A DNA stretch of 64,000 bases from Flavobacteriales bacterium (GTDB taxonomy: Bacteria > Bacteroidota > Bacteroidia > Flavobacteriales_D > Parvicellaceae): contig JAOASC010000048.1 in assembly GCA_025210295.1 (NCBI GenBank), positions 62,001 through 126,000 of the forward strand, given 5' to 3'. The number at the start of each line of letters is the position of its first letter. Within the stretch, counting starts at the first letter, position 1. The position numbers and the translations under genes are program-made. The notes under the pieces were generated by a model that was not told where the DNA came from, did not search any database, and worked only from the letters and a program-made list of their open reading frames with translations. Shown piece after piece: positions 15,401 through 54,319 of the stretch.

Positions 15401-17854
15401 TTAGTCAAACTCCACTTTCATCTCTACCCTTCTATTCTTTTGTTTTCCCGCTGCTGTTTTATTGTCTGCTATTGGTTGTGTTTCTCCAAAGCCTTCTACT
15501 GTAAAACGACTTTCGTCTATCCCTTTGGCTTTTAGATAGTTTGCAACTGCTTGAGCTCTATTTTTTGACAACCTCAAATTAGAAGAAGCACTCCCATCAC
15601 TATCGGTATGACCTGATATTTTTAACCTCCAAGTTGGCTTCTTTTCTAGTAATTCTGCCAATGCTTGCAATGAAGGATAAGAAACATCTTTAATAATTGC
15701 TTTTGCCGATTCAAACTCTAGATTATCAAATGCAGTATTTAAGATTTCCTGCTCTTCTTTTTTAATCTCTGGACAACCATCATTTTCGACCAATCCTGGT
15801 GTAGTTGGACATTTATCTTTATCATCAGGAACACCATCTGAATCTGCATCATCCAAAGGACAACCGTCTTTTTCTCTTACTCCAGGAGTTGAAGGACATT
15901 TGTCGACATTATCTTTTACCCCATCGTTATCGCGGTCCCCCCACGGGCAACCATTATTTTCTTTTGCTCCTGCTTCTAATGGACAAGCATCTTTATGATC
16001 AGGGATATTGTCTGAATCTGAATCTGGGCAACCTCTCATATCTTTTGCTCCTACTTTTTCTGGGCATTCATCTTCACTATCTTGAATTCCATCTCCATCA
16101 GTATCTGGACAACCTTTAAATGCTTCAATACCTTTCACATCTGGACAAGCATCATCTTTATCGATAATACCATCCTCATCTTTATCTGGACAACCTCCAT
16201 TCTCTACACTTCCTTTCTCTGTTGGGCAAGCATCTTTACTGTCTTTTACCCCATCTAAATCTGTATCTGGACAACCTTTAAACATCGCAACACCAGGCTG
16301 GCTTGGGCATAAATCTCTATTATCTGGTATACTGTCTTTATCAGTATCAGGACATCCATTAAAAACTGGTAAACCTGCTACTTCTGGACAATCATCGTTT
16401 TTATCTTTGATACCATCACCATCTTTATCTTTATTTTTTCTTCCAAATGTTAGGTTAACCCCTGTTCTCACATGTATATTTTTTGCATTATAAGGATAAG
16501 GTGCTCCATCTCCATCGACTGTAATATTTGCCAAACGTGCTGCCATAATATTATCGGTGACGATATAAAACTGTAAAAACCCTAAGTTTAAGCTCATCCC
16601 TAATCCGAGGTTATTATACCCTCTATTCGTCATCGAGTAAGAAGTTGTAGCTTGTAATACTTTCCCCAAGTTTTGAGTATAAGAAAGTGTTAAAGATGGA
16701 CGGATACTTCCCTTAAATAACTCTCCATGTAGCAATGCTCCAGCTTTTCCGCTAAACTTCTTGGTTTCGTATAGTTTATAGGAACCACTTAAATAGAAAC
16801 GACTCAACAACGAAGTGGTATAGGCTTGGGTATTGTTGGTTACAGAAAAAGAGTTTTCTGCATCTTGTTGGAGTTGTTCAAAGGCAGCATCTATTGAATC
16901 CTGCTGAACAGAATCTGCTGTAAAAATTGCATTAGAGAAATCCACTCCTGTAAACACAAAACTTCCATCATTTGAAACGATATTTTTATTATCATTTTTC
17001 CAACGAACAAAACCTAAATCAACTACACTTGCTGCAACAGTTAATTTATCTGACAAATTGTAAGTTGCCCCCAGATCAATTCCTAAACCTCTATTCTTAC
17101 GTTTTAATAAATAATCAGAAATAGCTTCTGATTCTATATCTGTATTTCCCTCAATTGTATCTGTTAAAGCATACACTCCAGAAGTATTCACAGCAAACTG
17201 CCCATTGATAGTCCAATCAAATGTTTCAGGATCAGTTTGCCAAGTGATATCGCTTTGTTTGGTCTGTATATTTTCCATACCATAGATATATTTCAATTTC
17301 CCTCCAACATTCAATTTATCACTCCACGCTCTTTGAAATCCTAATACGTACTCTCTGTAATGATTAAACTCCACTCCAAACCCAGAAAAATCTAATGTTC
17401 CATCCTCTAATTCAGAACTAGCATTTCCTGTAAAAGGAAAACGCAACATATCGCCCGGCAATGTTAACCTAGAAAAAAGATTTTCGGTTACATTAAAGCT
17501 GAAATAGTTCTTTTTTACAGCAAATCCAAAATGTAAAAGATCATATTTACTTGATAAGCTGATATGATTTTTTTTCTTCCACATTTTTTTCAAATGATCC
17601 ACCCTTAGAGTAGTAGTATTTCCACTCACCTCAAAGAAATCTTTAGGAGTAAAAACATGGTTATAATGATTAAAATAAAAAGAAGATAGACCTGGAAAAC
17701 CGATATTAATTCTAGCTTGTGGTCTTAATGCTGGATTTACATATTGAATTTGTTGAACATTGTCTAAATTCATCAATGTTAAATCTTGTTGAGCTACCCC
17801 TAATAAAGCTGTAGCTGTTAAAACGATAAGGAATATATTTTTTAAATATAACAT
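15401..17854 (-). CDS. OmpA-family outer-membrane protein with eight TSP type-3 repeats (DUF5723-like N-terminus)
   Basis: An 817-residue exported protein in three parts. After the signal peptide (to about residue 21) residues 22-465 form a beta-barrel-like region, DUF5723-like by its VNPALRPQARINIGFPGLSS opening. Residues about 471-695 hold eight calcium-binding thrombospondin type-3 units of 26-29 residues, each DxDxDGIxDxxDxCP...GCPD. Residues about 700-817 are an OmpA domain with ISGHTDSDGSASSNLRLS and NRRVEM, which binds peptidoglycan. The protein would link the outer membrane to the cell wall through a stiff, calcium-dependent rod. The gene follows a large lipoprotein gene by 51 bases on the same strand and is probably co-transcribed with it. 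Confidence 0.88.
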   Translation of the reverse strand: MLYLKNIFLIVLTATALLGVAQQDLTLMNLDNVQQIQYVNPALRPQARINIGFPGLSSFYFNHYNHVFTPKDFFEVSGNTTTLRVDHLKKMWKKKNHISLSSKYDLLHFGFAVKKNYFSFNVTENLFSRLTLPGDMLRFPFTGNASSELEDGTLDFSGFGVEFNHYREYVLGFQRAWSDKLNVGGKLKYIYGMENIQTKQSDITWQTDPETFDWTINGQFAVNTSGVYALTDTIEGNTDIESEAISDYLLKRKNRGLGIDLGATYNLSDKLTVAASVVDLGFVRWKNDNKNIVSNDGSFVFTGVDFSNAIFTADSVQQDSIDAAFEQLQQDAENSFSVTNNTQAYTTSLLSRFYLSGSYKLYETKKFSGKAGALLHGELFKGSIRPSLTLSYTQNLGKVLQATTSYSMTNRGYNNLGLGMSLNLGFLQFYIVTDNIMAARLANITVDGDGAPYPYNAKNIHVRTGVNLTFGRKNKDKDGDGIKDKNDDCPEVAGLPVFNGCPDTDKDSIPDNRDLCPSQPGVAMFKGCPDTDLDGVKDSKDACPTEKGSVENGGCPDKDEDGIIDKDDACPDVKGIEAFKGCPDTDGDGIQDSEDECPEKVGAKDMRGCPDSDSDNIPDHKDACPLEAGAKENNGCPWGDRDNDGVKDNVDKCPSTPGVREKDGCPLDDADSDGVPDDKDKCPTTPGLVENDGCPEIKKEEQEILNTAFDNLEFESAKAIIKDVSYPSLQALAELLEKKPTWRLKISGHTDSDGSASSNLRLSKNRAQAVANYLKAKGIDESRFTVEGFGETQPIADNKTAAGKQKNRRVEMKVEFD
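15770..16440 (-). repeat. Eight in-frame thrombospondin type-3 repeat units
   Basis: The coding stretch repeats the aspartate-rich calcium-binding unit DxDxDGIxDxxDxCP about every 80 bases, ending each time in GCP. Units differ in sequence by many substitutions, so the array is old. The last two units are slightly longer (WGDRDNDG and DDADSDG openings). Confidence 0.85.
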
Positions 17855-36659: not shown

Positions 36660-38435
36660 TTAATACTCTAAAAGGTTCTTTTTAAGGCTTCCGTTTTTAT
36701 ATAGTTTGTGAGCGATGAGCTTACGGCCTTTTGAATCATAGACTTTCATTTCCCCATGCTTTTTTCCCTCTTTGTAGCCAATTTCTGTTTGATTTTTACC
36801 TCTTCTTGTATAAGTTTTCGAAACTCCATCTAGCTTTCCATCTTTAAAGCTATTTTCTGTAGCAACAATCTTTCCCCCTGGATAATAAAACTTCCAAACT
36901 CCATTTTGCTTTCCATAGCTATATACACCTTCACTAGCTAAAGCTCCACCTTGAGGATCATAAGACAACCATTTCCCATGTTTATAACTTTGTACGGCAG
37001 GACTTGAATTGGCAATTACAATCGTATTCTTTTTCTTTGGCTTTTTTAGAGCGGCATATACCCCTTCATCTTTCAACACTCCTTTATCGGTCCAAAACAA
37101 CCACTTTCCATCTTTCATATCCTCTTTGTAGCTCCCCTCGTACCTTTTTTTATCATTAGGATACCACCCTGTCCAAGTAGCAGTCATCTTACCTTTATCA
37201 TAAGAACCTCGATCTTTCATGATTCCATTTTCATACCACGAAGTCCAAACTCCTTGCTCTAGTCCTAAGGTATACTTCCCCTCAAAAGCTTCTTGGCCGT
37301 TTTCAAACCACGAAGTCCACAAACCTTCCTTAAAATCATTTTCATAAGTCCCAGTTTTCCATGGCTCTCCATTATTATAAAAGAAATTCCACTCGCCTGT
37401 TTTTTTTCCATTCTCATAATCTCCTTTGTAGTACAATTGCCCATTAGGATACCAATAATCCCAATGCCCATGTTGTTCTCCATCTTGAAAAGGGCCTATC
37501 ATATCTTTGTTTCCATCGTTAAAATAATAACTCCATACTCCATGTTTTTCCCCTTCTTTATAGATTCCATCAATTACCAGTACTTCATTGGGATTATATT
37601 CTTTAAATACGCCATCTTTCTCTCCCTCTTTATAGGTCGTAATTTGATACAATGTATGTGACACAAAGTTCCACATTTTCCATTCTCCATCTTTTAACCC
37701 ATTGACATACGCTCCCTCTAGCCTAACAGTTCCATTGGCATTCCATTCTACATACTTCCCATTTAACAATCCATTTTTGTAGTTCTTTTCAACTTTTGGC
37801 CTTTTTGAGGTATACACTTCTTTTATACTTCCGTTTCCTCCAATTACGGTTTGTTTTCCCTCTTTATCCCAATAGCTTAATAAATACTCTCTTGCATCAT
37901 TTTTTTTATACTCCAATGTCATTTTAGGTCTACCATCTGCATGAAAATATTTCCATTGACCTATTTTCTCTGGTTCTATATACGCTAACTGTCCCCAATA
38001 TTTATATGGTTGCAGTAAAATACTATCGGGCAATTGGGCAAACGCTCCTTTTTCTTGAACTTGTCCGTTCTCGTAATAACTTGTAAAAACACTGTCTTGA
38101 ATTCCAAACTTAAAGTAACCTACATGTTTTATTTTCTCATTGGGATACAACTGAGTTACTTTACCATGGTATTTTCCATTGACATAAATTGATGATTCTT
38201 CTACCGCCCCATTTTTATACCAATAAGTCCATCGCCCTGTTTTTTGACCTACTCCCGAAAAACCACTCACATTATAATGTCCTCGACTTCTTAGCATCGT
38301 ACTATCTCTATCCCAAAAAGTAGTGACTAATGTACGTTCTAGTCCTCCTTTAGTAAAATCTTTATCTGTTTGGGCATAAAAATTAATGACCAACAGGTGA
38401 ATAACCAAAAATGCTATTAAACTTACTAATTTCAT
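36660..38435 (-). CDS. Exported MORN-like (YwqK-type) repeat protein
   Basis: Starting at 38435 (MKLVSLIAFLVIHLLVINFYAQ) gives a signal peptide; an upstream ATG at 38480 would add 15 residues ahead of it. The 591-residue protein is almost wholly made of 20-24-residue units of the form GxWxxWYxNGxxxxEGxYxxGxKxG, roughly twenty of them. This matches the repeat of MORN motifs and of proteins labelled YwqK-family antitoxin, but it has a secretion signal and no toxin neighbour, so an antitoxin role is not supported. The repeats suggest an elongated beta-sheet surface outside the cytoplasm. It follows the exonuclease gene by 57 bases. Confidence 0.85.
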   Translation of the reverse strand: MKLVSLIAFLVIHLLVINFYAQTDKDFTKGGLERTLVTTFWDRDSTMLRSRGHYNVSGFSGVGQKTGRWTYWYKNGAVEESSIYVNGKYHGKVTQLYPNEKIKHVGYFKFGIQDSVFTSYYENGQVQEKGAFAQLPDSILLQPYKYWGQLAYIEPEKIGQWKYFHADGRPKMTLEYKKNDAREYLLSYWDKEGKQTVIGGNGSIKEVYTSKRPKVEKNYKNGLLNGKYVEWNANGTVRLEGAYVNGLKDGEWKMWNFVSHTLYQITTYKEGEKDGVFKEYNPNEVLVIDGIYKEGEKHGVWSYYFNDGNKDMIGPFQDGEQHGHWDYWYPNGQLYYKGDYENGKKTGEWNFFYNNGEPWKTGTYENDFKEGLWTSWFENGQEAFEGKYTLGLEQGVWTSWYENGIMKDRGSYDKGKMTATWTGWYPNDKKRYEGSYKEDMKDGKWLFWTDKGVLKDEGVYAALKKPKKKNTIVIANSSPAVQSYKHGKWLSYDPQGGALASEGVYSYGKQNGVWKFYYPGGKIVATENSFKDGKLDGVSKTYTRRGKNQTEIGYKEGKKHGEMKVYDSKGRKLIAHKLYKNGSLKKNLLEY

Positions 38436-38491
38436 ATGAGTTGTATAACTGTATTTTAAAGATAAGGTTACAAATCCCATTCCTTTTCACC

Positions 38492-39324: not shown

Positions 39325-40848
39325 TTATTTACTCAAGGTAAATGTTTTCATATTCATCCCTTTGTCGCTATCAAATTCAGAAACTTTAAGTGTTTGTGTT
39401 CCTAATTGATATCCTGCTGCTTCTATTTCAAGCGAATAAACTCCTGGTTCTAAAATCACTGTAAAGCTTCCATTTGGGCTTGCTTTGTATTCTCCTACAA
39501 TTTCATCATTTTTATCAAAAATTATGATAAAACCATCTTTAATTGCTGCGCTAGACGTTGCATCTTTCACATTAAAGATAAACAATGCAGGTTTTTTTTC
39601 AACCTCTTCTAATGTAACACGATAAATATCTCTATCTCCATACCCCTCTGGTCTAACAGCAGTAAGGTAAGCATGTTTCATATCGTCTGAAAATTGGATG
39701 ACTTTATCATCGTATGAGGAGTTTAAAGGATACCCTAAATTTTGTGGAGACTTCCAACGATTAGTTTTGGGATCCCATTCGGTTTTATAAACATCATACC
39801 CTCCAAGACCAGGATATCCGTTAGAGGCAAAATAAAGCGTTTTACCATCTTTAGATAAGAAAGGAAAATCTTCATTCCCGTCTGTATTTAATGAGTTTAT
39901 TGGTTGAGATTCTGCCCAAGACCCATCTGGTAATTTCCTGGTCATAAACAGATCTAACCCTCCTTTACCACCTGGCTTATTACTTGCAAAAAGCAACGTA
40001 TTTCCATCAGCAGATAAAGATGAAGCTGTTTCAACAGCCTTTGTATTTACCCCTTCTTTTATTTTCTTTTTACGAGCATAGTTGGCTCCACTCTTTTTAG
40101 ACTCATAAATATCTCCTGCATCTTCAATATTATCGAAATAAATAAACATGTGTTGACCATCATCAGAAAGACTAACACATTGCTCATCATAACTTGTATT
40201 TAATGATGTCACAGGCTTAGCTGGTGAGAAACTAAACCCATTAAACTTAGTCATAAAAATATCTGAAGGGTAATATCCATCAAACTCTTTTCCTCCTTTA
40301 CTTTCTTTTCGACGCGAGGTAAACACTAAAATCTTTTCATCTTTAGATACAAATGGAAAATAATCTGGATATTCTGAATTAATTTTCTCTCCCATATTTT
40401 CAAATTTTACTGGGATTGGATTTTCGTACAACTCCTTAGCTAATTCATATCCAAAAATTAAACTTTCTACCTTATCCCCAAATTCACCTGGTGACTTTTT
40501 ATATTCTTTCAATGCAGCAATTGACTTATCGTATTCATAACGATGGGTATATGCTTGCGCTAGGTAATAATAATATTCTTTATCTTTCTTCTTTAACTTC
40601 CCCAATTTTTCTAAGTAATGCACTGCTCTACTCCTATCGATCTCTGTTCTCAAATAACAAAGCGCAAGATTAAACAGATACTTCCCATTGGTCGGATCAA
40701 CTTTCAACAGCTTTTTATATTGCGGAATCGCATCTAAATAATTCGTTGTTTTAAACAAGTCATCAGCTAAACGTGGGTCTACCTGACCACGAATCATAGA
40801 AAAACTAGAAAAAACAATGAAGACGATATATAGTATTTCTTTTTTCAC
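39325..40848 (-). CDS. PorE-like protein without OmpA domain (TPR, PD40 propeller, CRD)
   Basis: A 507-residue exported protein: signal peptide (MKKEILYIVFIVFSSFSMIRGQ), TPR-like helices (about 23-125; YLDAIPQYKKLLKVDPTNGKY), a WD40-like PD40 propeller (about 140-400, blades such as DGKTLYFASNGYPGLGGYDVY), and a C-terminal carboxypeptidase-regulatory-like beta domain (about 415-500; PGVYSLEIEAAGYQ). This matches the first three parts of PorE (PG1058 in Porphyromonas gingivalis), a T9SS-associated envelope protein, but the peptidoglycan-binding OmpA part is absent. It is third in a tandem row of three such genes and separated from the second by a terminator. Confidence 0.85.
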   Translation of the reverse strand: MKKEILYIVFIVFSSFSMIRGQVDPRLADDLFKTTNYLDAIPQYKKLLKVDPTNGKYLFNLALCYLRTEIDRSRAVHYLEKLGKLKKKDKEYYYYLAQAYTHRYEYDKSIAALKEYKKSPGEFGDKVESLIFGYELAKELYENPIPVKFENMGEKINSEYPDYFPFVSKDEKILVFTSRRKESKGGKEFDGYYPSDIFMTKFNGFSFSPAKPVTSLNTSYDEQCVSLSDDGQHMFIYFDNIEDAGDIYESKKSGANYARKKKIKEGVNTKAVETASSLSADGNTLLFASNKPGGKGGLDLFMTRKLPDGSWAESQPINSLNTDGNEDFPFLSKDGKTLYFASNGYPGLGGYDVYKTEWDPKTNRWKSPQNLGYPLNSSYDDKVIQFSDDMKHAYLTAVRPEGYGDRDIYRVTLEEVEKKPALFIFNVKDATSSAAIKDGFIIIFDKNDEIVGEYKASPNGSFTVILEPGVYSLEIEAAGYQLGTQTLKVSEFDSDKGMNMKTFTLSK

Positions 40849-40918
40849 AATGCTCTGTTTTTATGGGTAAATAATAAATGGTTTATTGCAATTAAGATAC
40901 CAAAATTTTATTTACAAA

Positions 40919-40947
40919 AAAACCCCTAGGCGAAGCTAGAGGTTTTA
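40919..40947 (-). terminator. Intrinsic terminator between PorE-like genes
   Basis: AAAACCCCTAG and CTAGAGGTTTT form an 11-bp stem (one wobble) around a six-base loop. The minus-strand arm ends in a T tract. It lies 27 bases after the stop of the 1168-residue protein gene. Confidence 0.8.
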
Positions 40948-40973
40948 AATATACAATTTTTTCAATAAAAACA

Positions 40974-43900
40974 CTACATAATCGTTATTGTGTAGGCTGT
41001 TTCATTAGATTGAAAGCTAAACTCACATCTTCTGTTTAACTGTCTATTTTCTTCATTATCTGATCCATCTGGGTTTGCATTAGGAACCTTAGGTTGAGAT
41101 TCTCCATACCATTTAATAACTAGATCATTCTCACTTATCCCTTTCTTTTTCAAATAATTAAACGCACTTAGTGCTCTTTTCTTAGAAAGTTGCATGTTAT
41201 AATCTTCTGTTCCGATCCAATCGGTATGCCCAACAATCTCTAATGAGAAATCTGGATGAGACGACATGTAGTCATAAATTTTATCTAATACATCTTTAGA
41301 ATTTAACCTTAAGAAGAACTCATCAAAATCGAAGTATATTGGGTTCAATTCAAAATTAGTCGTACTAACTTCTGCTACATCAGTCTTCTCTTTTGACGTT
41401 TCTGTTTCTGTCTCAGTTTCTGTTTCTGCCTCAGTTACAGCCACTACTGCTGCTTCTTCAATATTCAATAAGTCTCTAACAATGGTATAAAACTCATTTT
41501 CACTGGTATCTATTGTACTTAAATAATCTGAATACAATTCATCTTCGTCAGTTAATTTCACTTGATAAGTAAAGGTACGTTCTTCTTTTCCATCTTCAGA
41601 AGACACATTATCTATCACAAACTCTCCCTCTTCATTTGAGACTACTGTTGCAACCATTTCTTTTTTATCATTGACTAACATTGCTTCTATACCGGTTAAT
41701 TTTTCTTCACTAACAACCGAACCACTCTCTACTGTTTTCCCCAATAATATTCCTTTAGCCATCACACTATTTTCAGAGTTATTAGGCTGGTTTCCATAAT
41801 AGCTCATCTTTAAATCTTTTTCATTGATTAATAGTCCATAACCACTTGTTTCTTCAAGCTGACTAAAGCTAAAACCACCATCTTTATCTGTTCTTGTAAT
41901 CTGTACAATTTCATTTTGTGCATTTACCAAAGATACTTCAACATCAGCTGTTGTTAGGACATCATTATGAACTAATTTTCCATAAATCCCCTTATTAGCG
42001 TTAGCTTTTTGAGCTGTAATTCCTTCTTCAAAATTAGTCAACCCAAAAGTTCGCATTGTTTCTGCTTTTACATCAAACATTGCATTTTGGAAAACAGCTT
42101 CTTTAGCAACTAATTGTTCTTGCTCATTGACATCATTAAAGTGTACTTCTTGGAACAATTGGTATACCTCACATTGTTTTGGTATCTCTATGGTATCTCT
42201 AAATGGTCTACTCAAATCCCAATCTGGATTGGTAATTTCTAAATAGTAAGTATTATTAGGCGGCAATACCATCAAGTATTTTCCTGATCTACGATCTGAC
42301 TCCCATTGCCCCACTTCCATTCCTGTTTTTGCATCATAAGCCTTGATTGTAACAAAAACTGGCTGATTAAATTCTCCAACATACGCTAAACCTCTAATCT
42401 CTGTATTGGCAATATTATCACAATCATCTGGAAATTGATCTCCATGTTTCACCCATTTCTGTCCATCAGAAACGTAAATATCATCTCCTGACTTATCGTA
42501 ATAAATTGTTCCTTTAGCTGCAATTTCTTTTGGAGGCCCTTTTGTTTCTAGCAACCCTTTATCTACAACTTTCCAAGCTGAGCCATCACTAATATACATA
42601 TCTCCATTTAATGAATTTAAGTACAAGTCTCCACTTCTTCCAGCTGTTTCAGGTGTCCCCTCTCCTTCTTCTAATCCTCCTTTTTTATTTTGCCATCTCT
42701 TCCCATCAAAAACGTAGGTGTTCCCTGTTCTTACATTTACGAATACAGAACCTTTATCTGCGATTTCATTAGGAATACCTCGACCAATGGTTACATCGCC
42801 TTTTTGCGGCTTCCAATTTCCTAATTCATAGACATAAGTTTTTCCTGTTTCCTTATCGACATAGATATCACCACTTCTTCCTTCTTTGACTGGTAAACCA
42901 CTCCCGTAATCAATTCCGCCTCCATAATCTTTCCATTGATTATCTTCTTGTCTAGCAAAAATATTCGCGTTATCAGTATTAATATAAATATTTGCTGGTA
43001 TTACTGGAGGTTCTACAGGAACCCCAGCTCCTGATGCAATTCTTTGTTTTTTGACTGCCCAGACTCCATCTTTACTTTCATAAATATCACCTGTAGCTTT
43101 ATCTAAATAAACAGCATCGTTCTTAACTTTATAAGCAGGTTTACCTAATCCAGCAAACAGCTGCATTTCATTTCTTGCAGGAGTTGGATAAAACTTATAA
43201 ATATCAACATCACCATATCCATTCGCTCTACTTGAAGAAAAGTAACCTACATTGTCTACACTGTCTTGAATATAGTAAATATCATCTCCCCCAGAGTTGT
43301 ATGTAAGACCTACATTTTCTGGTTTAGACCACTTTCCGTTCTCCATTTGAGTGGATTTAAAAATATCATATCCACCAACCGAGTTGTGTCCTTGAGAGGC
43401 AAAGAATAACTCTTTCCCATCGTTAGACAAATAAGGTGCATCTTCGTTCAACGCTGTATTTAAAGTACTCATATTAACAGGTTCAGACCAGCTGCCATCT
43501 GTTTGTTGAGTTGCATAATACAAGTCCAAACCTCCTTTTCCTCCTTTACGAGAACTTGAGAAGAAAATAGTTTTCCCATCTTTAGTTAAAAACGCACTTG
43601 GCTCTCTTCCTGTAGAATTTACGGTCTTTAGCTCAACTGGCTTTCCATACTTTCCATCTTTTTTGGTAGAGACTAATACTCCATTATTTTGATAGATATA
43701 TAATTTTTCATCGTTATCTGAAAATCCAATTACTCCATCATGTTTTTTGGTATTAATTTTACTTGAAAAGAAATGATTCGCTGAATCAACATTTACTTTA
43801 TCGACCCATTTTCTATCCTTTTTAGTACTGATATAAATGTCCTCATATTTTTTATTATCGTGATACAATTGGTCTCCTGTATTCTCACGATCTCTTGTTG

Positions 43901-44480
43901 TAAATAGCAAAGCATCACTTTTAGAATTTACAATCTGACCATATTCGGCATATCTAGAATTAATTCTACCTCCAATATTTTCTGCCGTAATGTGTTCGTT
44001 TGCCTTAGTTTCTTGAAGCGCAACCCCATTATTACACATTTCAATTAAATGGTCTACTTCTAACAAAATAAAAGAACCTTCTCTATTTAATTTTGTAAAC
44101 TTTTTAAAGGTATTGTAATGCTCTATTGCTGTAGAAAAATTATTTAAATACTGGTGTGTTTTCCCCAAATAGAGAAAAATTTCAGAAATGGTATCTTTCT
44201 TAGAGTAAGCTAACGCATTATTAAACATCTCCAAAGCTTTTTCTCTTTGGTAGTATGAGTTATAATGCGCTAACCCTGACTCAAAATAGTACAAAGATTG
44301 TTTACCATCTAACTTTATTAAGTTTGAATAAGCAAGTTTTGCATTTTCGTAGTTCCCCTGCGTTAACTCCTTTCTTGCTTTTTTCAATATTTTTTTTTCT
44401 TCTGATGATTGAGCAAATATCCCACTGCTCAACATAACAAAAATTAAAATTAATAAACTGTAGTTAGATAATAATTTCAT
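40974..44480 (-). CDS. PorE-like OmpA-family protein with inserted tail-fibre-like repeats
   Basis: The 1168-residue protein reads: signal peptide (to residue 24), TPR-like helices (25-165), PD40 propeller (about 170-430; DGKTIFFSSSRKGGKGGLDLY), six repeats of about 40 residues (447-683) with core GxxYVxxxTGxxYVxDGxxW, a carboxypeptidase-regulatory-like domain, a second beta region, a TE-repeat linker, and a C-terminal OmpA domain (about 1040-1165; VGHTDWIGTEDYNMQLSKKRA, NRRCEF). Except for the inserted repeats this is the PorE layout for T9SS-linked envelope proteins. The OmpA domain would bind peptidoglycan. It is second in the tandem group. Confidence 0.88.
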   Translation of the reverse strand: MKLLSNYSLLILIFVMLSSGIFAQSSEEKKILKKARKELTQGNYENAKLAYSNLIKLDGKQSLYYFESGLAHYNSYYQREKALEMFNNALAYSKKDTISEIFLYLGKTHQYLNNFSTAIEHYNTFKKFTKLNREGSFILLEVDHLIEMCNNGVALQETKANEHITAENIGGRINSRYAEYGQIVNSKSDALLFTTRDRENTGDQLYHDNKKYEDIYISTKKDRKWVDKVNVDSANHFFSSKINTKKHDGVIGFSDNDEKLYIYQNNGVLVSTKKDGKYGKPVELKTVNSTGREPSAFLTKDGKTIFFSSSRKGGKGGLDLYYATQQTDGSWSEPVNMSTLNTALNEDAPYLSNDGKELFFASQGHNSVGGYDIFKSTQMENGKWSKPENVGLTYNSGGDDIYYIQDSVDNVGYFSSSRANGYGDVDIYKFYPTPARNEMQLFAGLGKPAYKVKNDAVYLDKATGDIYESKDGVWAVKKQRIASGAGVPVEPPVIPANIYINTDNANIFARQEDNQWKDYGGGIDYGSGLPVKEGRSGDIYVDKETGKTYVYELGNWKPQKGDVTIGRGIPNEIADKGSVFVNVRTGNTYVFDGKRWQNKKGGLEEGEGTPETAGRSGDLYLNSLNGDMYISDGSAWKVVDKGLLETKGPPKEIAAKGTIYYDKSGDDIYVSDGQKWVKHGDQFPDDCDNIANTEIRGLAYVGEFNQPVFVTIKAYDAKTGMEVGQWESDRRSGKYLMVLPPNNTYYLEITNPDWDLSRPFRDTIEIPKQCEVYQLFQEVHFNDVNEQEQLVAKEAVFQNAMFDVKAETMRTFGLTNFEEGITAQKANANKGIYGKLVHNDVLTTADVEVSLVNAQNEIVQITRTDKDGGFSFSQLEETSGYGLLINEKDLKMSYYGNQPNNSENSVMAKGILLGKTVESGSVVSEEKLTGIEAMLVNDKKEMVATVVSNEEGEFVIDNVSSEDGKEERTFTYQVKLTDEDELYSDYLSTIDTSENEFYTIVRDLLNIEEAAVVAVTEAETETETETETSKEKTDVAEVSTTNFELNPIYFDFDEFFLRLNSKDVLDKIYDYMSSHPDFSLEIVGHTDWIGTEDYNMQLSKKRALSAFNYLKKKGISENDLVIKWYGESQPKVPNANPDGSDNEENRQLNRRCEFSFQSNETAYTITIM
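41397..41437 (-). repeat. Six-base microsatellite coding for Thr-Glu repeats
   Basis: The plus strand reads as TCTGTT/TCTGTC-type hexamers, coding on the minus strand for alternating Thr and Glu (about ETETETETET). The unit length is a multiple of three, so gain or loss of copies would change the linker length without a frameshift. Confidence 0.75.
42431..43140 (-). repeat. Six ~40-residue in-frame repeats within the PorE-like protein
   Basis: Translated units share the frame GD[IL]Y[VL][DN]xxTG[KD]xYVxDGxxW, then a Gly/Pro-rich turn, for example GDIYVDKETGKTYVYELGNW and GSVFVNVRTGNTYVFDGKRW. Period is about 120 bases. Units are well diverged at DNA level, so the array is not a recent expansion. 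The pattern resembles repeats in tail-fibre- and collagen-stalk-like proteins. Confidence 0.75.
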
Positions 44481-44489
44481 AATTAGTTT

Positions 44490-46913
44490 TTAGAATGCCT
44501 TGATCATGATGTATTGAAATTTGGCATACTTTTCTGTCTTTTTGAAGTCCATTGAATACTTTGGCCCTTGAACCACTGAATTCACTGACAACAATTTAAC
44601 CTTTGACAGGTCTACGCCATTATCTTTCAATACTTTTAATAAAATTTCTTTTGCTTCTTCACTTCTTTTCTTTGCCAATAAGTTATTGTTTTTGAATGTT
44701 CTTGTAGGAACGGTAGATGCACTTCCTTCTACTTCTACATTCGCATAACCTCTTTTAGCGATAATATCTTCCACTCCTTTAACGAAAGCTTTAAATCTTT
44801 GCTCTTCTGTTCCAATTCCTTTTTCGTTATAACCATAGAACTTTTGGAAAGAAACTTTTTGTACTACAACATCTTCAACACATGGTATTGGCTTAGTATA
44901 AGTACTTACCACCTTACCTGATTCATCTAACTTTTTAATTATTAAATTTCCACAAGCAGAATTATCTTTTAAATCAGCTTCAAAAGCAGGCTCATTTCCT
45001 GATGGCAATGCTTTGTCTGCAAAGAATCCATTCTCATCCAATACTTGATAAAATACGACCTTATCTCCATCTAAGAAATTCACTCTACCTTTATTCGTAT
45101 ATGGTTGATCATTTACGAACAACTGGTATTTAAATTTACTAGTTGTTTCCAATTCATTTACAGGAACTTTTGTTTTATCAACAACGTCTACAATATCTGT
45201 ATTATTTGGCTTGTTAATTTGATCTAACGCAACCCCATCTAAAGAAATAACTTTATTAATTTCTTGGTACCCTGATCCACAAGGCACTTTCATTTCTGTC
45301 TCATAGAATGTTTTTTCATCCCTAGTATACTCTACAAAATACTCATGACAAGGTGTTAAGTTAAACACATAGGCTCCGTTTCTTCTATTAGGCTTATATT
45401 CAATTGGATCGCCATCTTCGGTAATATCTGTTACCCAAATCACAATTCCATCAGGAATCTGCCCCTCTGTTCCCGCATCGATATAACCTTTCAAAATGGC
45501 AACTTGTGGCTGTTCTTTTCTTTTTAAATCAATGGTATAAATATCTTTTTCTCCAATACCTCCAGACTTAGCTGATGAAAAATATCCTCTTTGCCCATCT
45601 GCTGTTGTTGTAAAAAAGATATCATCATTAACTGAATTTAATGGGTATCCTATATTGAATGGAGTAGACCATTTATCTCCTTCTATGTTGATTGAATAGA
45701 AGATATCAAACCCTCCCATACTGTTTTTACCATTAGAACTAAAGTATAGTGTTTTTCCATCTGGGTGGAAGAATGGTGCGTCCTCATCATAAGGTGTATT
45801 AATTGGAGCTCCAATATTTAATGCTTTACTCCATTCACCTGTTGGCAATTTAACACTTCTATAAATATCTCTTCCTCCCATTCCTCCTGGTCGGTCACTT
45901 ACAAAATATAATGTTCTTCCATCTGCTGATATTGTAGCATGTGTTTCCCAGCTATCGGTATTTATATCTGAGTGCATTTCTCCTTTCCCCATAGAAACAG
46001 GCACTGAATATCCATCACCTTCTCTTTGAGACACATAGATATCTCCATTACCAACAGATCCTTTGTAAATAAACAATTGTTGCCCATCTCCTGACACACT
46101 AATTGTAGCTTCGTTTGTTTCAGGTTTTCTGTCTCTACTAATTTCGCCTAGTATCTCAGGCTCCATCCATTTTCCTGTTTTTAAATCTTTGTAAGAAACA
46201 TAAACATCTTCAAAATATTTACCATCTTGATAACTGTACAAGCCAAGGTTTGTAGAATCCTTTCTTAATCTACGTGTTGTAAAGAACATCGCACTTTCAT
46301 CTAATGTAACTACAGGACTATACTCATCATATTTTGAATTTAAACCATCTTGTATTAACTCTATCTTAAAGTTTTTAGGATCCCCAACCATTTTCTTAGC
46401 AATTTGAGCTTGAGCAACCCCTAAAGCTGCTTCTGGTTGCAACACATGTTTGCTGTGTGCTGTCTTTTGATAAATAGCATAAGTTTCCAAAGCTTTATCT
46501 AATTGTTGGTTAATGTGATAAGCTTTACCTAAGTAATAGTAAGTTTCAACTGGAGCTTTTTTCTCCATAAAAGAAAAAGGATCGTATGATTTTGAAATAT
46601 CTTTTTCTGCATCTTGTAAATATGGCAATGCTTTTTCTCTTTCGTTCGCGATGTTTAAGTAACACAACCCTGCCTTATAATTCACATTTCCATTCCCCTC
46701 TCCGCTTTCTATGATATTGGTCCATATTTTTGCTGCATATACATACAAATTTTCAGACATCAACCTACTGGCTGTTTCAAACTTTTCTTTATAATTTGCT
46801 GATTCTAAAGATTTCTCTAGTTTTTCTGGATCGAAATCCTGAGCTGTAGAATTAGAGATAACACCAAAAAATAGTGCTAATAGTGTTAAGATGTTTAAAA
46901 TGTAAGTTTTCAT
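44490..46913 (-). CDS. PorE-like OmpA-family protein (TPR, PD40, CRD, OmpA-like)
   Basis: An 807-residue exported protein with a signal peptide (to about residue 25), TPR-like helices (30-170), PD40 propeller (about 190-460; DGRTLYFVSDRPGGMGGRDIY), a carboxypeptidase-regulatory-like domain (470-560), and a C-terminal alpha/beta domain (690-807; VEGSASTVPTRTFKNNNLLAKKRSEEAKEILL) that looks like an OmpA-type fold. The usual GHTD motif is replaced by EGSAS, so peptidoglycan binding may be altered. It is first in the row and its promoter is strong. The stop is ten bases before the next gene start, pointing to an operon. Confidence 0.87.
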   Translation of the reverse strand: MKTYILNILTLLALFFGVISNSTAQDFDPEKLEKSLESANYKEKFETASRLMSENLYVYAAKIWTNIIESGEGNGNVNYKAGLCYLNIANEREKALPYLQDAEKDISKSYDPFSFMEKKAPVETYYYLGKAYHINQQLDKALETYAIYQKTAHSKHVLQPEAALGVAQAQIAKKMVGDPKNFKIELIQDGLNSKYDEYSPVVTLDESAMFFTTRRLRKDSTNLGLYSYQDGKYFEDVYVSYKDLKTGKWMEPEILGEISRDRKPETNEATISVSGDGQQLFIYKGSVGNGDIYVSQREGDGYSVPVSMGKGEMHSDINTDSWETHATISADGRTLYFVSDRPGGMGGRDIYRSVKLPTGEWSKALNIGAPINTPYDEDAPFFHPDGKTLYFSSNGKNSMGGFDIFYSINIEGDKWSTPFNIGYPLNSVNDDIFFTTTADGQRGYFSSAKSGGIGEKDIYTIDLKRKEQPQVAILKGYIDAGTEGQIPDGIVIWVTDITEDGDPIEYKPNRRNGAYVFNLTPCHEYFVEYTRDEKTFYETEMKVPCGSGYQEINKVISLDGVALDQINKPNNTDIVDVVDKTKVPVNELETTSKFKYQLFVNDQPYTNKGRVNFLDGDKVVFYQVLDENGFFADKALPSGNEPAFEADLKDNSACGNLIIKKLDESGKVVSTYTKPIPCVEDVVVQKVSFQKFYGYNEKGIGTEEQRFKAFVKGVEDIIAKRGYANVEVEGSASTVPTRTFKNNNLLAKKRSEEAKEILLKVLKDNGVDLSKVKLLSVNSVVQGPKYSMDFKKTEKYAKFQYIMIKAF

Positions 46914-51685: not shown

Positions 51686-54319
51686 ATGAAAAAACTATTA
51701 CTTATTGTTCTCACAATAATTAGTCTTAATTATTTATTTGGACAAGGCTATTATTATCAGTGGCATCAACAATTAAATCGACTAACCATCACCCAAACGA
51801 CTGAAGATGCCAATGGAAACCTTTATCATATTGGTCATTATTCTATTAATCCAGACTTAGAACCTGGAGCCAATTCAAATAATTACTCATCCAATGGACA
51901 AAATGACTTTTTTATCCAAAAAACAGATAACCTTGGAAATTTAATCTGGGTTAAAACATTTGGAAGTGCTGGTCAAGACTTTGCAGAAGACATTGTTATT
52001 GACAACCTCGGATACATTTATATCACTGGTAGCTTTAGCGGCACATTAGATTTTGACCCTTCAAACAACATATACAACAGAGCATCAAACGGAGGAACAG
52101 ATGTTTTTATACTTAAATTAAATTCTTCTGGAGATTTGACATGGATTAAAACACTAGGAGGAACTGAATATGACGAGGGAAATTCAATAGACATTGACAA
52201 CTCTAACAATGTCTACATTACAGGAACATTCAAAAACAGTGTTTATTTTGATCAAGCGAACTCCGCTCACCAACTTACTGCATCAACATACAATCCCTAC
52301 ATCCTTAAATTGACTTCTGGAGGAAACTTCACATGGGTAAATACATTCAACTGTAGTTCTTTTTCCTATGGTGAACAAATAAAAATCGACAACAATAACA
52401 ATATAATAACATTAGGAAAATTTCAAGGATCTATTGATTTAGACCCATCTTCTTCAACAACCAACATAAACTCTAATGGTTTTTACGATCTATACATCAG
52501 CAAAATTGATGAAAACGGGAACTACATTTGGAGTAACAGTATAGGAAGTAGCGGAAACGAATACCCATACGACATAGAATTAGATAACAACAACAATGTA
52601 TACATACAAGGTGGATTTGGTGGAACTATAGACTTCGACCCTTCTTCTAACACTCACAACATAAACAACTCCATTCAAAACCAAGTTTTCGTTCAAAAAA
52701 CAAATGAAGACGGAAGTTGGAACTGGACTAAATCCCTAGACGGGTGCACCCCTAAAAGACTCTCAATAAACAATGACAAACTATTAGTAAACGGTTTATT
52801 TTCAGGAACAGTAGACTTCGACTACAGCTCAGGAACAGATATAAAAACATCCAATGGAGGAGATGATATTTACTGTGTGAAAATTGACACTGCTGGAAAC
52901 TTCGAACAATCATTCACAATAGGAAACTCCAGTAGTGATGATACTTATGAAATCAACGTTTTTAAAGACTCAAGTTTTATCTTATATGGTTTTTTTCAAA
53001 GTAGTTCAATAGAAGGTAATCCTGAGGGCAACTCCACCCCCATTCTATACTCTGACGGAGGAAGTGTTTTCTTTACAAAATACCAAATATGTACTCCAAC
53101 TAATACAACCATTACTCAAACAGCTTGTGAGTCATATAGCTCTCCAAGCGGCAATTACACATGGAATAGTTCTGGAACTTATTTTGACACCTTAACCAAC
53201 ATATCTGGATGCGATTCTGTAATCACTATCAATTTAACAATTAACAACAGCTCTACATCTACCGACATTCAATCTGCTTGTGGAAGCTATACTTGGATTG
53301 ACGGCAATACTTATACCACCAGTAATAACACTGCTATTTATACCACCACCAATGCTGCAGGGTGTGACTCCATAATCACGCTTGACTTAACTATCTTAAA
53401 CAGTTCAACGTCTACTGATACCCAAACCGCTTGTGGAAGTTTCACTTGGTTAGATGGCAATATTTACACTACAAACAACAACTCTGCTACTTATACCACC
53501 ACCAATGCCGCTGGGTGTGACTCCATAATCACGCTTGACTTGACTATTTTAAATAACACAACGTCTACTGATACCCAAACCGCTTGTGGAAGTTTCACTT
53601 GGTTAGACGGCAATATTTACACTACAAACAACAACTCTGCTACTTATACCACCACCAATGCCGCTGGGTGTGACTCCATAATCACGCTTGACTTAACTAT
53701 TTTAAATAGCACAACGTCTACTGATACCCAAACCGCTTGTGGAAGCTATACTTGGGTTGATGGTAACACTTATACTACGAACAACAACTCTGCTACATAT
53801 ACCACAACAAACACTGCGGGATGTGACTCCATAATTACTTTGAATCTAACGATACATAACGTTGACACCTCTGTTACCCAAAACAACTTAACGTTAACAG
53901 CAAATGCTAGTGGCGCACAATATCAATGGTTCGAATGTAATAACTCCACTGCTCTAATGGGAGAAACGAACATCAGCTTTACCCCAACTACTAGCGGGAA
54001 CTATGCGGTGGAGATCACCACCCTTGAAGGTTGCGTCGATACTAGTAGTTGTTACACCGTTTTGAACACTTCTATTCATGAGATCAATAAGGCTATAAAC
54101 ATATTCCCTCAACCTTTCCAAACGGACTTTAATATTTCTTTTGAAGCCGCAGAAGAAAGAACAATCACATTGTATGATCTCAATGGTAAAATTGTTTTCT
54201 CTAAAATCACAACAGAGCAAGAGATTAACATTAGACCTACTCCAATAACAAGAGGAACCTATATTTTAAACATCATAGACAACAATTCTACCAACAACTA
54301 TACAATTGTTAAACATTAG
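51686..54319 (+). CDS. Large secreted T9SS type A cargo protein with SBBP-like and CGSYTW repeats
   Basis: The 877-residue protein has a signal peptide (to about residue 20) and an SBBP/beta-propeller-like region (about 30-465) with repeated blocks such as DNLGYIYITGSFSGTLDFDPS. Then follow one diverged and four close copies of a 51-residue unit with CGSYTW-x-DGN...AGCDSIITL (about 474-728), a short Ig-like PKD-type part, and a C-terminal T9SS type A sorting domain (about 803-877; INIFPQPFQTDFNISFE, LYDLNGKIVFSK, RGTYILNIID). It is exported by the type IX system and probably attached to the surface. The two cysteines per unit may form disulphides. A terminator follows. Confidence 0.87.
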   Translation: MKKLLLIVLTIISLNYLFGQGYYYQWHQQLNRLTITQTTEDANGNLYHIGHYSINPDLEPGANSNNYSSNGQNDFFIQKTDNLGNLIWVKTFGSAGQDFAEDIVIDNLGYIYITGSFSGTLDFDPSNNIYNRASNGGTDVFILKLNSSGDLTWIKTLGGTEYDEGNSIDIDNSNNVYITGTFKNSVYFDQANSAHQLTASTYNPYILKLTSGGNFTWVNTFNCSSFSYGEQIKIDNNNNIITLGKFQGSIDLDPSSSTTNINSNGFYDLYISKIDENGNYIWSNSIGSSGNEYPYDIELDNNNNVYIQGGFGGTIDFDPSSNTHNINNSIQNQVFVQKTNEDGSWNWTKSLDGCTPKRLSINNDKLLVNGLFSGTVDFDYSSGTDIKTSNGGDDIYCVKIDTAGNFEQSFTIGNSSSDDTYEINVFKDSSFILYGFFQSSSIEGNPEGNSTPILYSDGGSVFFTKYQICTPTNTTITQTACESYSSPSGNYTWNSSGTYFDTLTNISGCDSVITINLTINNSSTSTDIQSACGSYTWIDGNTYTTSNNTAIYTTTNAAGCDSIITLDLTILNSSTSTDTQTACGSFTWLDGNIYTTNNNSATYTTTNAAGCDSIITLDLTILNNTTSTDTQTACGSFTWLDGNIYTTNNNSATYTTTNAAGCDSIITLDLTILNSTTSTDTQTACGSYTWVDGNTYTTNNNSATYTTTNTAGCDSIITLNLTIHNVDTSVTQNNLTLTANASGAQYQWFECNNSTALMGETNISFTPTTSGNYAVEITTLEGCVDTSSCYTVLNTSIHEINKAINIFPQPFQTDFNISFEAAEERTITLYDLNGKIVFSKITTEQEINIRPTPITRGTYILNIIDNNSTNNYTIVKH
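53258..53869 (+). repeat. Four tandem 153-bp coding repeats
   Basis: Four in-frame units of 153 bases (51 residues) start at 53258, 53411, 53564 and 53717. Units 2 and 3 differ at only about three or four bases by inspection, showing recent duplication or gene conversion; the others are more diverged. A looser unit precedes the array (about 53105-53257). In-frame copy-number change would lengthen the surface protein. Confidence 0.9.

Follow-up and report, generated by a model that had tools for sequence, protein, structure and literature searches.

The window (the whole stretch of DNA analysed, 64,000 nucleotides) carries on its minus strand a tandem of three PorE-like genes (507, 1168 and 807 aa; positions 39325-46913), the outer two of which lack a Pfam-recognisable OmpA domain. 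The middle gene is the subject of this study. The tandem and the parts of the 1168-aa protein are as follows (positions are those of the window):

39325..40848, minus strand: neighbouring PorE-like gene, 507 aa, without an OmpA domain (Pfam, NCBIfam)
40974..44480, minus strand: PorE-like protein, 1168 aa, with TPR, PD40 propeller, six-unit insert, regulatory-like domains and OmpA_C-like domain (ORF and domain scans)
44412..44480, minus strand: signal peptide-like N-terminus, residues 1-23, without a lipobox cysteine (read from the sequence)
44031..44408, minus strand: TPR region, residues 25-150 (weak TPR Pfam matches; aligns with the T9SS_PorE and CHU_0125 models)
43191..44003, minus strand: PD40 beta-propeller, residues 160-430 (PF07676, E 1.8e-12)
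42426..43190, minus strand: insertion, residues about 431-685 (missing in six syntenic orthologues outside the genus)
42111..42422, minus strand: first regulatory-like domain, residues 687-790 (type assigned from the PorE architecture; no Pfam match here)
41850..41951, minus strand: second carboxypeptidase-regulatory-like stretch, residues 844-877 (PF13620, E 4.5e-5, below the gathering score)
41061..41336, minus strand: OmpA_C-like domain, residues 1049-1140 (PF00691, E 1e-18)
44490..46913, minus strand: neighbouring PorE-like gene, 807 aa (conserved beside the orthologue in outgroup loci)

The first regulatory-like domain begins with C-x-x-I-x-N-T-E-I-R-G, which is conserved with outgroup orthologues, and a GHTD..G...YN..LS..RA motif can be read in the OmpA_C-like domain. 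The fastest-evolving stretch of the protein spans residues 790-1040. An ETETETET low-complexity linker precedes the OmpA domain (residues about 1010-1030; about 41390-41450, minus strand). Elsewhere in the window lie an SBBP-type beta-propeller protein with a T9SS type A sorting domain (51686-54319, plus strand), an OmpA-family protein of 817 aa that in NCBIfam resembles the outer membrane exchange protein TraB most, at a score below cut-off (15401-17854, minus strand), and a 606-aa protein with repeated NGxxxGxWxxWYxNG-like units, scoring 99 of 250 bits with the LIC20035 adhesin model, below the cut-off (36660-38480, minus strand).

A PorE-like paralogue

The order TPR, PD40, regulatory-like, OmpA_C is that of PorE; the first and third of these are matched weakly, and an insert of about 255 residues interrupts the series. 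In NCBIfam, the T9SS_PorE model (NF052230) gives a partial match of 206 bits (cut-off, 600) and the CHU_0125 family one of 226.7 bits (cut-off, 620). The top PorE match of the genome is a different protein (C33:119255-121204, 480 bits). Thus the label "PorE-like" given in a preliminary description of this DNA holds, but does not extend to PorE itself: judged by profile matches, the protein belongs to a numerous set of PorE-like paralogues in its genome. About two dozen ORFs of this kind could be read from such matches in the 4.2 Mb genome, amounting to a large expansion of paralogues.

Residues 1-60 contain no cysteine at all, and so no N-terminal lipoprotein cysteine. Among the F. johnsoniae PorE homologues, a signal peptide is present in all but one, and no lipoprotein is predicted (PMC7192894). 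PorE binds PorP and, via its OmpA_C domain, peptidoglycan (PMC9143113, PMC7192894), while CHU_0125 is needed for outer-membrane integrity (PMC5891637). By analogy, the paralogue probably tethers the outer membrane to the cell wall. The T9SS motor gene gldM was found in the genome, making a type IX secretion system likely here.

Six units inserted in one genus

Residues 444-685 (window 43151 down to 42426) are filled by six units of 40-42 residues, each supported by the unit HMM and a leave-one-position-out profile:

43032..43151, minus strand: unit 1, residues 444-483
42906..43031, minus strand: unit 2, residues 484-525, the most divergent
42786..42905, minus strand: unit 3, residues 526-565
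42666..42785, minus strand: unit 4, residues 566-605
42546..42665, minus strand: unit 5, residues 606-645
42426..42545, minus strand: unit 6, residues 646-685

The consensus reads G-x-G-x-P-(x)6-G-x-I-Y-x-[DN]-(x)3-G-D-x-Y-V-x-D-G-x-x-W, its P and W being invariant in an alignment of 34 distinct units of the genus. For the repeat test, each unit was held out, scored with a profile built from the other five positions, and compared with 500 shuffles of itself. Units 1 to 6 scored 21.3, 11.8, 37.4, 39.6, 36.7 and 24.7 bits, whereas the best shuffles reached 5.9-10.8; every unit exceeded all of its own shuffles, the weakest being unit 2 (11.8 versus 8.6). These results confirm the six repeats of about 40 residues noticed in the preliminary description, and their placement between the PD40 propeller and the regulatory-like domain (Pfam, orthologue alignment), with the boundaries moved from residues 447-683 to 444-685. 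DNA matches among the units are short and amino-acid identity between positions is about 29%, indicating that they are not recent copies. No curated model covers the units in Pfam, NCBIfam or PHROGs, which answers the concern that an annotated domain might account for them, and no description of the unit as a named family was found in the open-access literature.

The array is present, with exactly six units, in the orthologues (about 1160-1180 aa) of all seven genomes of the genus, the window's included and one of them cut by a contig end. In six outgroup orthologues (L016-L021, about 900 aa long), which come from other genera of the family in two cases and from other families of the order in four, the alignment covers residues 1-430 and 686-1168, and only a few residues separate the two blocks. 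Gene order bears out the orthology seen in sequence: a relative of the upstream 807-aa PorE-like gene adjoins them too, with 35-54% identity over the compared part. The array is thus a clean, genus-specific insertion into the linker that joins the PD40 propeller to the regulatory-like/OmpA part. No full-strength array was detected outside the genus in an order-wide sample of 299 genomes or in a phylum-wide sample of 395 (partly overlapping), and a scan of genome contigs returned six loci, all from Flavobacteriales MAGs and with the same insert. Viral contigs yielded no relative of the whole insert. The earlier remark that no PorE protein with such units was known is in line with these searches: the overlapping samples of order, class and phylum (299, 395 and 395 genomes) hold no PorE-type carrier outside the genus, although such carriers may exist beyond them.

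Units at the same position in different orthologues are on average 69% identical, against 29% for units at different positions, implying that all six units were in place before diversification of the genus began and that they have not been homogenised. Values of dN/dS in the insert (0.05-0.12) are somewhat higher than in the flanking domains and lower than in the 790-1040 linker (0.21-0.31, from more divergent pairs), all of them rough as dS is near saturation in the compared pairs. By these sequence comparisons, the insert is under purifying selection, with length and sequence both maintained.

Kinship of the units with fibre and collagen-stalk proteins

Several lines of evidence support a relationship with the spacer units of phage tail fibres and collagen stalks, a resemblance first noted in the preliminary description. 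Alignment of the window units with fibre units by hhalign gives a probability of 96.7 (E 3.9e-10), and the unit HMM matches phage tail fibres at 4e-9, 4e-7 and 5e-5 (best domains; six proteins searched). A tblastn search of phages with the insert gave nothing significant. In sequence, the kinship becomes visible only through profiles and a collagen-type form of the unit, L054, a weak match from the order-wide search which, used as query, finds tail-fibre proteins including that of Erwinia phage Hena1. The other weak matches L052 (a Reg_prop-like protein), L053, L007 and L008 were judged unrelated on reading. The PfN, Pf2 and PfC domains of E. coli prophage collagens (PMC3368898) gave no match in the Pfam scan.

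Across 395 genomes of the class, a mixed profile picked up carriers in 34. Runs of at least five Gly-X-Y triplets occur at least once in 27 of the 34 other Bacteroidota carrier proteins and are absent from seven; none of the 34 has TPR, PD40, regulatory-like or OmpA parts akin to those of the window protein, which itself has no run of three or more Gly-X-Y triplets. A profile search with the unit, as the preliminary description had proposed, leads to fibre- and collagen-like proteins. Alternation with Gly-X-Y collagen appears typical of the spacer unit, if not strictly defining. Four carriers from Flavobacteriia with an IPR-type N-terminal module (L059, L060, L061 and L062) have one or two such units and no collagen; L061 runs on into long alternating repeats. 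Together, the HMM and hhalign matches, the Foldseek matches given below and the Gly-X-Y company of the carriers identify the module as the spacer unit of fibre- and collagen-like proteins, here directly repeated and placed in a new host protein.

Predicted structure, proposed role and known systems

The AlphaFold2 model of the insert, built on a shallow alignment of seven closely related rows, has an overall pLDDT of 71 (mostly 80-88 in the middle) and a pTM of 0.66, with strands in every unit, three to four in each. Foldseek searches of BFVD match this model to collagen-like proteins of giant viruses (E from 1.8e-15 to about 1e-6) and to phage tail fibres (for instance Hena1 at 2.8e-8). Probabilities are near 1 and TM-scores only 0.12-0.21, as would fit units strung together with no fixed overall superposition. 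A two-unit model (pLDDT 77) has as its first PDB match VP88 (8hif, probability 0.91), the anchor protein of Singapore grouper iridovirus (PMC10090177). VP88, also matched by profile (E 0.003), is the sole solved relative by both sequence and fold. The single-chain model of the insert is matched by viral collagen-like and fibre proteins and not by a closed propeller. Nor does it look like a plain continuation of the protein's own propeller, or a duplication of its PD40 blades: the unit profile scores just 1.4 bits on these, and no closed propeller was matched.

The reading we favour, which we hold to be about evenly balanced between right and wrong, is that the array is an elongated spacer of fixed length between an outer-membrane-side head and a peptidoglycan-binding end. 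A genus-specific insertion has placed six small beta-units in the interdomain linker of a PorE-like protein. These would form an elongated string, a shape suggested by the low TM-scores of the model, and would part the TPR-propeller head, which might interact with partners at the outer membrane, from the presumed peptidoglycan-binding OmpA_C domain. The array would thereby lengthen the tether between outer membrane and cell wall, acting as a spacer and not as a catalytic part. The constant number of six units could reflect a length constraint or, just as well, a domain that is closed or packed in a specific way; of the two, the model speaks for a length constraint.

One such closed domain would be a second, six-bladed beta-propeller, formed by the units and sitting on top of the PD40 propeller. 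Units of 40 residues with three to four strands each, always six in number, could be blades, and the strongest PDB sequence matches of the insert profile are indeed designed Cake propellers (E 5e-14). The strength of this match, however, comes from the perfect repeats of the targets, and with single units it shrinks to a 19-residue hairpin (E 0.0024). The AlphaFold2 model has TM-scores of 0.09-0.16 to every propeller listed by Foldseek in the PDB, a comparison that is not final given the shallow alignment. For these two reasons the propeller was dropped as the main reading, and we consider it the least likely of those weighed here. Reg_prop blades, another candidate for the identity of the unit, fall far behind fibre units in hhalign (probability 54.6, E 1e-4, versus 96.7, 3.9e-10) and were set aside.

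The fibre kinship itself raises the prospect that the six units form trimers, like those of tail fibres and collagen stalks, and so give a trimeric tether with three peptidoglycan-binding ends. Collagen runs stand beside the unit in most other Bacteroidota carriers, the phage carriers are annotated as tail fibres, and lower PDB matches of the two-unit model include collagen XV/XVIII trimerisation domains (probability 0.23-0.44), Mtd and tailspikes. Yet these matches are insignificant (E about 0.5-1.7), the window protein is without a Gly-X-Y run, and the single-chain model is already moderately confident. VP88, moreover, is one chain in the deposited capsid asymmetric unit, which suggests that the unit may not need to trimerise. 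We regard trimerisation as rather unlikely, and as more doubtful still the stronger version in which the tether domesticated a phage or giant-virus fibre-stalk module whose six copies act as a trimeric ruler of fixed length in the envelope. No greater likelihood attaches to a surface that binds a ligand or partner (such as a glycan, peptidoglycan or T9SS cargo) through aromatic residues and DG loops. The Trp is invariant, the Tyr nearly so and the D-G loops are conserved in what is an envelope protein, and the units occur in fibre-type proteins of Flavobacteriia; but all units, and unrelated fibres too, have these residues at matching places, as would be expected of residues that maintain the fold, and no catalytic or lectin family was matched in Pfam, PHROGs or PDB sequence searches.

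The clean insertion should change the reach or the assembly of an envelope tether, and the orthologues with and without it are a natural pair that makes the spacer idea testable. Beyond this protein, a widespread and as yet uncurated fibre-stalk unit is now linked to a cellular scaffold protein, and the unnamed repeat family deserves a profile of its own.

Among the closest known systems are viral proteins matched to the insert by Foldseek: an Orpheovirus collagen-like protein (E 1.8e-15) and a 238-aa Tupanvirus protein (3.6e-11). Like VP88, these are viral structural proteins, differing from the window protein in host architecture and having low global TM-scores. Collagen-like and fibre-like proteins of Bacteroidota (L066-L094, L059-L062) have the unit in common, in one to seven copies, without the TPR, PD40, regulatory-like and OmpA parts. 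Tail fibres of Erwinia phage Hena1, Agrobacterium phage Atu_ph07, Sinorhizobium phage Phosso and Xanthomonas virus PB119 carry the unit as GxGxP...GDxYxDxxTGDxYxKxxGxW, single or 54-96 residues apart with mostly Gly-X-Y between, whereas the window array has six in direct tandem at 40-42 residues and no Gly-X-Y. With PorE the protein shares TPR, PD40 propeller, regulatory-like and OmpA_C-like domains in identical order (PMC5053529, PMC7192894), differing in its length (1168 aa versus about 670), its six-unit insert and its want of a lipobox. It is a new combination of known parts, fibre-stalk units set in a PorE-like cellular protein.
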